DNA of 64,000 nt from contig OZ026833.1 in assembly GCA_964023205.1 (NCBI GenBank), positions 30,530,830 through 30,594,829 on the forward strand, read 5' to 3'. Source of the stretch: Lutraria lutraria. Lineage: Eukaryota; Mollusca; Bivalvia; Venerida; Mactridae. Both the position numbers and the translations under genes were made by a program. Under the pieces are notes generated by a model. That model ran no database searches and was not told where the DNA came from. It saw nothing but the letters and a program-made list of their open reading frames with translations. Positions 6,101 through 12,100 of the stretch are shown one piece after another. The stretch's first letter is position 1, and each line of letters begins with the position of its first letter.

Positions 6101-9100
6101 ATTTTGACCAAAACACCGCGAAAAATCCCAAGGGTATGGGTCATATTCCCAAAATACTGAAAAAAATCTGTATGGTGTTAAACTGGTGTGTGCAATGCCA
6201 TGTTAGGTAAAAGCAACTTACTCAGTTTTATTATTTTGTATTTTCAGTCAACTCGTTACAACTACAGTAGTGATGAGAAGTTTGCTATTATTGAAGTTAT
6301 AGCTATGATTAAAGGTTTACAGTTACTTATGCTACGTATGGAGTCTGTGTTTATGGATGCTATACGACGCCATATCTACGCAGAACTACAAGACTTTGTT
6401 CAACTTGTGCTCAGAGACCCAGTAAGAAAAGCAATTAAGAAGAAAAATGATGTGATCAAAGTGTAAGAATATGAAGATGATTCTTTGTCAACTTAAGTTT
6501 AGTAATTATAATCATTATAATGATGACATTATTTAAAGAGTCTGCACAATTGGGTTTCCCCAATCCTACATATAACAGGGCTTTTTTTCCTTCTATAACA
6601 GAGGCCAAAATTCGATTTGAGACAAGAAATTCCCAAAAATACAATGCTATTCTAACTCGGTTGCCTAACCTTCTAATATTTGGCCAAATATCGCGCTTTA
6701 TTTTCATTTCCCAAAATGTAAGGCTAAGGCCCTTTCCTAATTTTTGGAAAAAAGGCCCTTAATAGGCCTCTGAACATGCAAGAAAAGTACAAACAAAAGA
6801 ATGTACACTTTCAGGAATGATCCACTGAATTCCTTTATAACAATAATGCTAATGCACAAGAATGAAAGTATACCATCCCAAGTTGATAATCATCAAATTA
6901 ATTCTGTATTAAGATTATTCTGTTGGTTGTAGTATTGTTATGGCTGTAAGAAATACATGTGTGGACTGGTTACGTGGTGTAGAACCTCATGAGGACCCTG
7001 CTATGAAGGGAAAGAAGGACCCAGATGAGGGGTTCGCCATTAAAGTACCTAGGAGGAACGTTGGACCTTCAACCACTCAGGTATTGTTTACACAAAAATC
7101 TAAACATTTATATTTATTTGCATTTTGAATCTATCAGATGACCAACGAGAAGGCCTGAAATCGTTCACTTTTGTAACATTAAATTGTTCTTTTGTATCAG
7201 ACTATCCTTAAAAAATAGTTTGTTTGGGGTTACGCTACCTACTCACCCTACAACAGCCCTACCCAACTTATTAGGTCTCCTGGGTATTTTTTTTTTCAGT
7301 ATATAAATAGCATTTTGACAGGTATTTAGATTCAATGTAAAATGATTTGTAAAAAAAAATTTCTTACCTAACAGCCCACTGAAAAGTCACTGGGTAGGGT
7401 TAACCCCAAACATTCTTTATGGATGGCCTTGTATGATGTAAAATTTGGTTGAATTATTGTTTGTAGAAATTATGACTTTGTTGAAGAATGTAGATGATAT
7501 GATGATAGAGGATACTTTCTATATAACCATTCTGAACTAAATGTTTACATATTTTTGTACCCTGATTTATGTATCTTTATAATTTTCAAATTGATGAAAT
7601 TTTAGATTAATAAAATGTATTCAAGCTTAAACTTGTGTACTGTGCATTAGCCTGTCGAGAAATTGTGACATCAATTTAGACTGGTTTGACATTTTAATGG
7701 TTTTGTCATTATATTAATCATTGTCTCCTGATGTGTTATATAATACATTGTATCATTTTTACAGCTTCAGTTTCTGCAGCTTTGCTTTGTCTTTAATCTG
7801 TCTGTCAGTGATTGCAAGGTCCAAAGTTCTGAAATTGAGATTGCTCTCCCAGTCCAAATACTAATTTTGTGGTTTTAATATTCTTGAAGTGTTTGACATA
7901 AGATTATATGATTATTTATGTAGTTCTCTGTATGCTGGTTAATTGATATCAATATTTACTTATGCTTGTTACACACATGCATATTGATCAGAAATAAGTT
8001 GAGAATGAAAATTACATTTGAGCATGGAGGCCAGTCACAAGTTTTGTTTAAACTCGGAACTCATGAGCATGTTGAATCATTTCATGTGACTAATTGTGTA
8101 ATAAAATAATGTGTTTCAGTTATACATGGTACGAACCATGTTGGAATCATTGATTGCTGAAAAGAATACTGGAGGAAAGAAAACTTTGAGAAAGGATATA
8201 GACTACCAACATTTTCTAGCCATCGATAATTTTCACAAAAACTCCTTTTTCTGGTCATATGTGCTAAACTTCAATGGTAATTTTTCTGCCTGTATGTTGT
8301 GGGGCATGCTGGATGTTGGTCTGAAATGTTGTACCACTTTATTTATTTCCATTGTATGCCTTTTAATCTCTAGCTTACAGGTTTATTGTTCACTCACCAC
8401 CTCTGACTATAGATGCATCCCCCGCAGCTGATTGATCTTAATCCTTCCCTACTGATGCATTGTCCTTAGTCCTTTATGATTTTAGTTTTAACTCAGAGTT
8501 ATGAAACTAAGTCTTTACATAATTGTTCAGTATAAAAATATTGATTTAGATTTTTGTGTCGCCTGACTAGGCGACATATAGGGATTATTTTGTCGGTGGT
8601 GGCAGTGGCAAAAAAAAATTGACAAGCATGTTCAAGAATTGAATAGACAAATATTGCAGAGACAAGTTTGATAACTCTTGGTCTGAGGTGTAAAGCTAAG
8701 GTTTGTAAACCAGTCTGTGAATGCTATCTGATCATTGGTCAATATCAATGCTGAGTCAAGAACAGCCAATCAAATTCTTGCATTTATGGACTGGTCCTCA
8801 CATTTAGCTTTATTACCTTATATGTTTATTCCTTTGTTAGATTATCACTTTTTTTAACATGTTAAGTGCATGAATGCAGTTCTAGCTTTAGATATTGTAC
8901 CAGTATACTGTATTGTGCATACAGTTATGTATTATTATTCAATATCATATTGAGCATGAGTCTTCTCTGTTGAGATATAGCTGCAAGTTTTATCAGGCTG
9001 TCTTTATTAGGCTTCTTGTAAATCTACCAAATCTGGCTGATTCTTTTCCAAACAATAAACCCAAACTTTTTGTTAGTAATAAATTGCATGATTAACATCA

Positions 9101-12100
9101 CTTTTAGAACAAGACGTTCATTCATATTCATAGGAAAAAATTGTTGGAATAGTATAAAATTTGTTTTATTTTGAAATTGTTCTTATAATAATTGTTCCTT
9201 TCTTTCTAGAATTATACAGCTTTTACATTGGATTTTATATAACCATTACATTACAAAAACTTCCTGTTCATGTTTAAAATCATCTGTTTTCGTACACTTA
9301 ATTTTTTCATTCCTTTTTCATTCCTTGGAATTAAACTGAGACACATGTACATAGTATTCATGGCAGTTAGAACTGAATTCTTAGGTGTACAATATTAGAT
9401 ATACTAGTATCAGATCTGTGACAATTTCTGTGTTTCCTGTGAAATCTCCACATTAAGATCACCTTTGGAATCAAATTATAGAATTTTATAAGTTACATGG
9501 CCTTATTATCAAATTGAAATGTAGATGAAATACTGAAAATGGTCTTGACAAGCCATGGTCTCTATAAAGAGATGGTCACAATATTAAGTGGTGATGATGT
9601 GAGGTTTTACTGTAGATAGTTGAGATGTAGATTCCCAAATCTTAACATACAGTCAAACCTGTGAACAAAGGCAACCCTTGGGAAAGCCACCTCAATGCCT
9701 TTATTGACAGGTGGTCTTTTTGGACGTCATTTTGTACTGAATAGTCAATAACAGTTTTTGAAAGAATGGCCTTTATTAGGAGGTGGTTGATAACCCAGGT
9801 TTGACTTTGCATGTATTAATATTATCCAATAGATGTCTGCTGAAATTTACTATCATATTCGATGTATGATGTTACACACTAGAAATTGTCACAGATCGAT
9901 GCTATACCTGTTCAGTTATGAATTTCTCAATGTTTGGCCATTGTTAGATAAAAGGTATTAGATCATAGCCATGAAAGTTATAACTATGAATCTGAATACC
10001 ATTTTCAATATGCAAGCATCTGATTGGTTAACTTTGAGCTCAGTTTCAAAATTGACCAATAGAAATGCTGCTATCAAAACTTGATTTTGTAACTTCATGA
10101 CGTCTTATATCACATTGAGAAACATCATTTCGAACACCATATTTATATGCCTTTGATGTAACTCTTTCATTCAGTTCAGGCATAAAAAATTCCTGGTTTC
10201 CGCTAACTCCTCTGATGAGTCTGGGTTAATTTTTTCTTGCGGATTGTTTCAATTTGATATAAACTACAAATCTGTAGTAATAAGGTATTTTGGAAAAAAA
10301 AACTGCCCATCTACTGATCCTATTGTATTTTGAGGATTTTAGCGGAAAAACCAAGAATTTATTTTTTGCCCTTACTCCTCATTACCCTGCATGATTATTT
10401 AACCCTGTTTAGTATTCCTTGTTTTGCATGGGTATTTACAGTTGTATATGGTTCGTACAATGCTTGAATCCCTTATCGGTGATAAAAATGCTGGCGGGAA
10501 GAAGACATTAAGACGGGAACTTGATATGAAAGACTTTGGCGCTATCGACTATTTTCACAAACATACCTTTTACTGGAGTTACCTTTTGAATCTTAATGGT
10601 AATGCAAAATACAGCTGGCTTAAAAAATTGTTGAACTGGGCTTGTAGTAGTCATGGTATTAACTGTGTTTGAATAGAAAACACAGTAATTTTTGCTATAA
10701 TTATCAATATTATCACTACATTGTAAGTGCATTGGAAGTTCTATTTACATTAATTTTAATTACATGCATTTCACTTTCTCACTAGAAATACTCTAAATCT
10801 ACATGGTTTATCCTAATGAACTAAATTTGACTGAAGTTATAATATACATGTCATTTTTCTCTCTCCTGATGTAACATCAGGTATGGGAACTGGTTAGTAC
10901 TGGTAAGTGTGGTCATCAGTAATAAATTGCTTGTTTGCAGTTACATGACTCTTATGGTAATTTTCTGTCCCAGTATATTAAGCTTTTGTTTAAAAAATAT
11001 GTTTGTTTCTTTATTCAAGCATACATGTATGTTTGCAAAAAAAATAATGCCTTCCTACCTACCCACTATTAAAAGTGAGGGTTTAGTAACTGGAACCCGA
11101 CAATTTTTAAGATAGCCTAACCCAGGAATACTGAAATACTGTTAATGAGTTTTTAAATCATACATGCAGATAGACAAATAGGCACTTTTGCATTTTAGAT
11201 GTTCTGTTCACTTTCTTCATACTTTTACTAAACTTGTCTTATGATAATTTATTTGACTGATAAAATACATATCTACTGTACTATTTTAAGTTCAGAATCT
11301 TTTACTTGTAATTTGGGTTTAAATGTATTGTAACAAAGTCACATAATTACTACTCATGAAATGATAAAAAACAACTAAACATTCATTTGTGAAGATTTTA
11401 AATAATGTCTATAATGTTTTGAAGAGAATTTATTGATTGTCCAAAATTGATTAGTTTAAATTTATTAATTTATTTATGTTAAGCAATAAGATATGACTGA
11501 TATATAAATATTCCAAATGTTGTTGAAAGAGACTTCGACTCTCTTGGCTGAGTTTTGTTTCTGAAGTGATATGTTTGAGTGGCTCTGAATGTTTAAAGGT
11601 TAAAGCTGTTTAATTATTCTGTACAGAATCTCTACACAACAGTTGTAATCTGTCACAATTATGGTACAGAGAATTCTTCCTTGAGATGACCATGGGTAGA
11701 AGAATACAGGTTGGTTGACTATCAATGTTTTTATCTTTCACTTAATGGGTTAATATTATGTGATGTGAGATGTACCTTGAGTGTAGCTTTTTCATTGATC
11801 CGTTTTCAGAACTAAGCTCAGCTTGAACCAATCAGGCAATTTTATTTTGAGACCAGCATAAACATGTATAAACCTCAGACTCAGTGTTAGGACCATAATG
11901 ATGAAAATAACAATCTGTTAAAATTGATTTCAAAAAAGAATTAGACTCTGATATCAGGTATTTACCACAATTGTTTTATGGTTTAAGTTTATTAGTATTA
12001 TCGGCATATGATGTGGTCGTCCATATAAATATGGCCTGCCCGGCTAGCTCAGTGGTTTGAGCGTTTGTCTGATGATCGAGAGGTTTTGAGTTTGAACCCC

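Follow-up and report, generated by a model that had tools for sequence, protein, structure and literature searches.

Paired versions of exons 4 and 12 in a bivalve CYFIP gene: candidate mutually exclusive exons

CYFIP, the Rac1-sensing subunit of the WAVE complex, is conserved across animals and beyond. Two CYFIP genes, A and then B, lie in tandem on the + strand in and around the window analysed here, a 64,000-nucleotide (nt) stretch of DNA from the bivalve Lutraria lutraria (C1:30530830-30594829). Gene A carries two versions of exon 12 (12A and 12B) and, upstream of the window, two versions of exon 4 (4A and 4B). The anatomy of these exons and their occurrence in relatives make it highly likely that, in a bivalve CYFIP gene, splicing treats 12A and 12B as mutually exclusive, as part of a larger design that includes 4A/4B and a probable microexon.

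Gene A and its paired exons

Judged from its sequence, the product of gene A is CYFIP. Both domains of the CYFIP (Sra-1) test, FragX_IP (PF05994) and the Rac1-binding domain (PF07159), score over their cut-offs, and the likeness is full-length, with 91% identity to Mercenaria mercenaria CYFIP in a protein search (984-residue query).

Table 1. Features of the two CYFIP genes; positions are those of the window unless preceded by C1.
Feature	Position	Strand	Remarks
Gene A (CYFIP), in-window portion	153..20156	+	start codon at C1:30523571, 7.3 kb before the window
Exon 4A	C1:30527137-30527318 (window -3692..-3511)	+	usual version; 182 nt; phase 0 to 2
Exon 4B	C1:30528180-30528361 (window -2649..-2468)	+	182 nt; phase 0 to 2; 1 kb downstream of 4A
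Probable cassette microexon	2152..2184	+	33 nt; 11 residues; AG..GT; frame-preserving
Exon 11	6933..7080	+	148 nt; common upstream partner
Exon 12A (A type)	8120..8276	+	157 nt; phase 0 to 1; human CYFIP1 559-609
Intron between 12A and 12B	8277..10441	+	2165 nt
Exon 12B (B type)	10442..10598	+	157 nt; phases equal to 12A
Exon 13	11627..11709	+	83 nt; common downstream partner; holds the residues aligned to human F626 and M632
Gene B, tandem fast-evolving CYFIP paralogue	27317..47947	+	ends approximate
Single exon-12 counterpart found in gene B	38444..38581	+	46 residues

12A and 12B share 36 of 52 residues and 104 of 157 bases. A preliminary description of this DNA had given their coordinates, length, phases, open frames and residue identity, all of them exactly; the splice sites that it had called good are AG acceptors and GT donors, and its match of the segment to human CYFIP1 residues 559-609 is borne out by alignment. 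The intron flanks are dissimilar, with 25/60 positions identical before the exons and 21/60 after, which is the background level; the likeness therefore ends at the splice sites. Within the window, the two versions match as protein with an expectation value (E) of 5e-23. Across the whole 728.5-Mb genome, a 52-residue exon-12 probe has three matches at E <=0.001 (four candidates scored): 12A, 12B, and the gene B segment at 38444-38581. As a measure of chance, 277 of the 15,256 non-exon stretches of 157 nt within gene A or immediately preceding it have no stop in the frame as read. The two versions score alike against FragX_IP in Pfam (50.7 and 48.0 bits). In a predicted structure of the Dreissena protein P0125, used for helix boundaries only (mean predicted local distance difference test score, pLDDT, 62; predicted template modelling score, pTM, 0.63), exon 12 would cover a helix, an ill-defined loop, and additional helices.

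The second pair emerged when the 30 kb upstream were searched for the 5' part of gene A; it lies 2.5-3.7 kb before the window. Both 4A and 4B are bounded by AG..GT, contain no stop, and show no net length change; 25/60 residues and 100/182 bases are identical. A 4B probe has three matches in the genome: 4B itself, 4A, and the gene B copy. For all four exons, splice-site scores exceed those of 88-99% of the other AG/GT sites of the region, as measured with a small matrix (11 donors, 13 acceptors).

The reading frame distinguishes the possible combinations. The preliminary description had derived a frame rule from the length of exon 12 (157 mod 3 = 1), and translation agrees: inclusion of both 12A and 12B gives a stop at codon 617, and inclusion of neither gives a stop at codon 577. 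For exon 4 (182 mod 3 = 2), the corresponding stops fall at codons 193 (4A+4B) and 141 (neither). From the start codon to exon 13, 4A+12A, 4B+12A, 4A+12B, and 4B+12B are all open, as is 4B+12B with the microexon. As only translations with single inclusion are open, a full protein needs exactly one exon 4 and one exon 12.

In a search with the exons of gene A, clear duplication within the gene is limited to exons 4 and 12; exon 5, searched in the correct frame, has no second copy in gene A. The presence of a CYFIP paralogue in the window could suggest that 12A and 12B resemble each other through tandem gene duplication, or through an assembly error. There is next to no chance that this is correct, and it is rejected: gene B has its own exon 12; duplication in gene A is clear for two exons only; a base identity of 66% makes an uncollapsed allele unlikely; and a Mya protein, P0086, shows the same A-then-B order. 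A weak in-frame copy of the exon at ~13412-13487 occurs at 14280-14345 (E 0.038), fused to the next exon. It was dropped as a third duplicated exon because no in-frame acceptor is visible before it, and it is a remnant or a chance match. At the site of the microexon, isoforms of Mya, Dreissena, and Mytilus carry inserts of 8-11 residues in the same position.

Selection on exon 12 and its history in bivalves

The differences between 12A and 12B number 16, 6, and 31 at first, second, and third codon positions. Second positions (6/52) have drifted far less than third positions (31/52), so neither copy is free of constraint. Where the residue is the same, the codon is also the same in 14/36 cases. 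Neutral decay of 12A to the observed number of base differences, simulated under one-way change and a fixed base composition, keeps a mean of 19.6 residues and a maximum of 28 in 3000 runs, as compared to the 36 observed, a retention reached in 0/3000. The profile score of 12B (95.9 bits; 110.3 for 12A) is reached in 0/1000 neutral runs, the maximum being 48.7. In sequence terms, 12A and 12B are a real exon pair held by protein selection. The codon-position pattern, the unmatched neutral decay, and the presence of the pair in other bivalves all agree with the old, protein-selected pair of the preliminary description.

Occurrence in other molluscs, which that description had proposed as a check, is found in annotated proteins of Mya, Mercenaria, and Dreissena, which contain exon 12 of the A type, the B type, or both. 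The comparison covers 163 proteins in total, drawn from: a search with the gene A protein (1255 matches from 5166 candidates, the best 120 of the 1255 being used); a B-region search (4/4 candidates); and an A-region search (93/96). Mercenaria isoform X2 is of the B type, and Dreissena isoform X1 is of the A type. In Mya arenaria, P0086 (no isoform number) and P0005 (isoform X3), two annotated products of a single gene, share long identical stretches, with 1025 identical, 45 different, and 258 gap columns. They differ in the exon-4 version, an 11-residue microexon insert, exon 12, and exons that are skipped or misread in P0086. At exon 12, P0005 has B, and P0086 has A then B, joined through intervening sequence. 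P0086 indicates that both exon-12 versions are present in Mya in A-then-B order. No exon-12 pair is seen outside heterodonts among cluster-representative proteins; since such representatives conceal other members, this is weak evidence of absence.

Second CYFIP genes inform the age of the B type. A tree of the gene outside exon 12 was built from 23 sequences and columns with <=30% gaps; for this, gene B was assembled from tblastn segments, and approximate joins supplied the end of gene A. Here, gene B falls with P0115 and the second CYFIP genes of Mercenaria and Ruditapes (ultrafast bootstrap, UFBoot, 100). The two Dreissena genes are sisters (UFBoot 100) and together join Mya (100); by this placement, Dreissena gene 2 is a lineage-specific duplicate. 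A tree of exon 12 alone places Dreissena gene 2 with Mya 12B (99; 36/51 residues identical as compared to 29/51 for Dreissena 12A), and an approximately unbiased (AU) test rejects its grouping with Dreissena 12A (p 0.0034). As Dreissena gene 2 carries a B-type exon, 12B predates the Mya/Dreissena split and now serves a separate gene.

In the older second gene, represented by gene B, P0115, and the genes of Mercenaria and Ruditapes, exon 12 falls with the B type with a support of 80. Its derivation from the B type is not accepted, since the alternative, in which 12B arises after the split of the older second gene, is not rejected by the AU test (p 0.106). The exon-12 alignment has 54 columns and long branches and carries limited weight; P0005 was omitted from its tree as a copy of Mya 12B, and the overlong tails of two rows were trimmed. 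No duplicated exon was noticed in gene B, which was searched with the exons of gene A only.

12A is nearly frozen, with 50/52 residues identical to Mya 12A and to Dreissena isoform X1, and 12B evolves faster, with 42/52 identical to Mercenaria isoform X2 and 32/51 to Mya. This difference in rate favours the possibility that one of the versions, with 12B the likeliest, is a defunct or rarely used copy and that the protein always contains 12A. We regard this as improbable. 12B keeps 20/22 highly conserved positions, its second-position differences and residue retention are not those of neutral decay, and the B type occurs in annotated isoforms of Mercenaria and Mya and in Dreissena gene 2. More improbable still is a pair that acts mainly as an off switch, in which joining both versions or neither leads to regulated destruction of the message and coding use of both is secondary. 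Both wrong combinations do create early stops, but the protein of both exons is kept by selection, which a pure poison exon would not need, and for each version there are species whose annotated proteins include it as coding sequence.

Exon 4, exon 12, and the Rac1 A site

By alignment, exon 4 corresponds to residues 130-190 of human CYFIP1. As described in the cryogenic electron microscopy (cryo-EM) paper, the Rac1 A site comprises residues 91-108 and 176-215; N176W, C179R, N183R, S186M, and K189M impair WAVE-complex activity, and R190D disrupts binding (PMC9481577). Aligned to these positions, 4B retains N183, S186, and R190 as well as a small residue at 179, and has T for N176; the preceding helix is largely replaced. 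Against the Pfam CYRIA/CYRIB Rac1-binding profile, the N-terminal part scores 55.8 bits with 4B versus 47.0 with 4A. In the last 13 whole codons of 4A and 4B, beyond the first, 4 codons differ, 3 of them synonymously, and such mostly synonymous change argues that KSSIKNDYSAYR is held as protein. Neutral runs reach the residue retention of 4B in 1/3000 and its profile score (47.2 bits) in 0/1000, and the chance of a stop-free 4B after such decay is 2.5%. Exon 4 would offer a better Rac link than exon 12, as it encodes the core of the A site and is duplicated in gene A.

Exon-4 alternatives occur in Lutraria lutraria, in Mya, and in protein pairs of four Mytilus species. In Mytilus californianus, edulis, galloprovincialis, and trossulus, the paired proteins differ solely within residues 131-183. 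Among the Mytilus proteins P0010-P0029, the exon-4 choice is seemingly combined with an 8-residue insert, giving four combinations; the insert was compared directly in M. californianus only, and by length and exon-4 letters in the others.

For exon 12, the preliminary description had proposed a link to Rac through F626 and M632. Both residues are indeed encoded by the following exon (11627-11709), and in older mutagenesis M632D and E434K/F626A are reported to have lowered Rac1 binding (PMC5614565). The cryo-EM paper places the A site elsewhere, and F626 and M632 are both absent from its main text by word search (PMC9481577). The Rac link of exon 12 through these residues is weak. It is nearly an even possibility that exon 12 is exclusive yet alters a trait other than Rac sensing, for example Nap1 or WAVE contacts, the stability of the complex, or localisation. 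This is compatible with exclusive splicing. The position of human 559-609 outside the A-site residues named from cryo-EM (PMC9481577) is in its favour, and the location of F626 and M632 in the exon adjoining 12A/12B counts against it. Right after the exon-13 segment (human residue 637), CYFIP isoforms of the scorpion Centruroides vittatus (P0062-P0083) differ by a 22-residue insert, a further splicing choice within this region.

Exclusive splicing and known systems

With the anatomy, frame logic, protein selection, and occurrence in other bivalves observed, the case for exclusive splicing is strong by anatomy and comparison, and 12A and 12B are very probably mutually exclusive in heterodont bivalves. 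Exon 11 would be spliced to either 12A or 12B, and then to exon 13. The outcome would be two full-length CYFIP proteins that differ at 16/52 residues in the segment matching human 559-609. The frame would guard this choice, as both or neither exon 12 leads to an early stop and, presumably, to nonsense-mediated decay. Gene A would extend the design with 4A/4B in the exon that specifies the Rac1 A-site core, and with the probable 33-nt microexon. We infer that both versions are used in Lutraria lutraria, that they are exclusive in transcripts, and that the choice is regulated by cell type or stage. The most likely effect would be a change in the strength of WAVE-complex activation by Rac1, or in autoinhibition, and would be more direct for exon 4 than for exon 12.

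Besides the faster evolution of 12B, several observations weigh against this proposal. Of the homologues, 162/163 have a single exon-12 motif; the exception with two is Mya P0086, and its A-B read-through is probably a prediction error. Isoforms X1-X3 are automatic predictions, and none of the species among the 163 homologues is represented by a clean full protein for each of the two exon-12 versions. The differences between 4A and 4B are even over codon positions (29, 24, 29), suggesting that 4B is under weaker constraint or adaptively changed, and 4B keeps 16/39 highly conserved positions. Exclusion by U2/U12 incompatibility is set aside, as no U12 branch motif occurs within 45 nt upstream of any of the eight acceptors examined. 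For pairing between introns, the longest match is reached in 34-60 of 60 shuffles for five of six intron pairs. It is reached in 2/60 for the other, a match of 15 nt linking intron 11 to the 12A-12B intron that, as one of six pairs, is not taken as evidence. Nothing convincing of Dscam-type docking/selector pairing is seen in the gene A introns, considered in Lutraria lutraria only. Steric exclusion is likewise set aside: the introns between versions, at 2165 nt (12A-12B) and 861 nt (4A-4B), are too long.

Splicing could probably build different versions of the CYFIP cell-movement switch. A wider proposal is tentative, and we hold it to be somewhat doubtful: bivalve CYFIP may be a combinatorial, splice-tuned Rac1 sensor. 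Exon-4 versions in several lineages, the exon-12 pair before the older A-site patch, and the microexon would give as many as eight WAVE complexes that differ in Rac1 threshold. Following gene duplication, single copies would have become fixed on the B-type exon 12, which is supported for Dreissena and possible for the older second gene. Should the Rac1 site itself be spliced in bivalves, these would be natural variants, a working complex with changed input, and would help separate binding, autoinhibition, and activation. Dreissena is a test case for alternative exons becoming separate genes.

A literature search of listed titles and abstract starts, with most subscription journals outside it, finds no mutually exclusive pair in CYFIP, nor one in bivalve CYFIP. 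The preliminary statement that no CYFIP pair is described agrees with this literature; public automatic annotation of Mytilus already contains an exon-4 pair. The word CYFIP is absent from the main text of a survey of human mutually exclusive exons (PMC5740500). It is likewise absent, by word search of the available text, from a Manila clam RNA sequencing paper that lists such exons among the rarest events (PMC9803972).

The Rac1-binding domain of CYRI (FAM49), PF07159, matches 4B alone at 19.1 bits (E 8e-4) versus 12.9 for 4A; six other bivalve exon-4 segments give one match, at 13.9 bits, below 4B. Unlike CYRI, 4B is a CYFIP exon, its best solved match is human CYFIP1 with no CYRI chain among the matches listed, and no claim of a CYRI-like working is made. 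The Mytilus CYFIP pairs (X3/X4; the M. galloprovincialis pair is unnumbered) likewise represent an exon-4 pair at the Rac1 A site. Their versions are close (87% over 77 residues), whereas 4A and 4B share 25/60, and each Mytilus protein listed has the same A-like exon 12, in contrast to the pair in gene A.

The prediction criteria given by Pillmann et al. (2011, PMC3228551) for mutually exclusive exons include similar length, compatible splice sites and frame, and homology. Both pairs show these properties (157/157 and 182/182 nt; AG..GT; compatible frame; no stop; 36/52 and 25/60 residues), and both consist of internal exons of one gene and not of a tandem gene array. Unlike the clusters of Dscam and muscle myosin heavy chain, each cluster here has two exons, its exclusivity is predicted, and CYFIP is not among the genes found described. 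What appears new is the presence of mutually exclusive exon pairs, a known kind, in a gene where no such pair was found described. As in Dscam and muscle myosin heavy chain, these are neighbouring internal exons, matched in length, phase, and splice-site type and coding for one and the same protein segment, and the frame is kept only when a single one is included.

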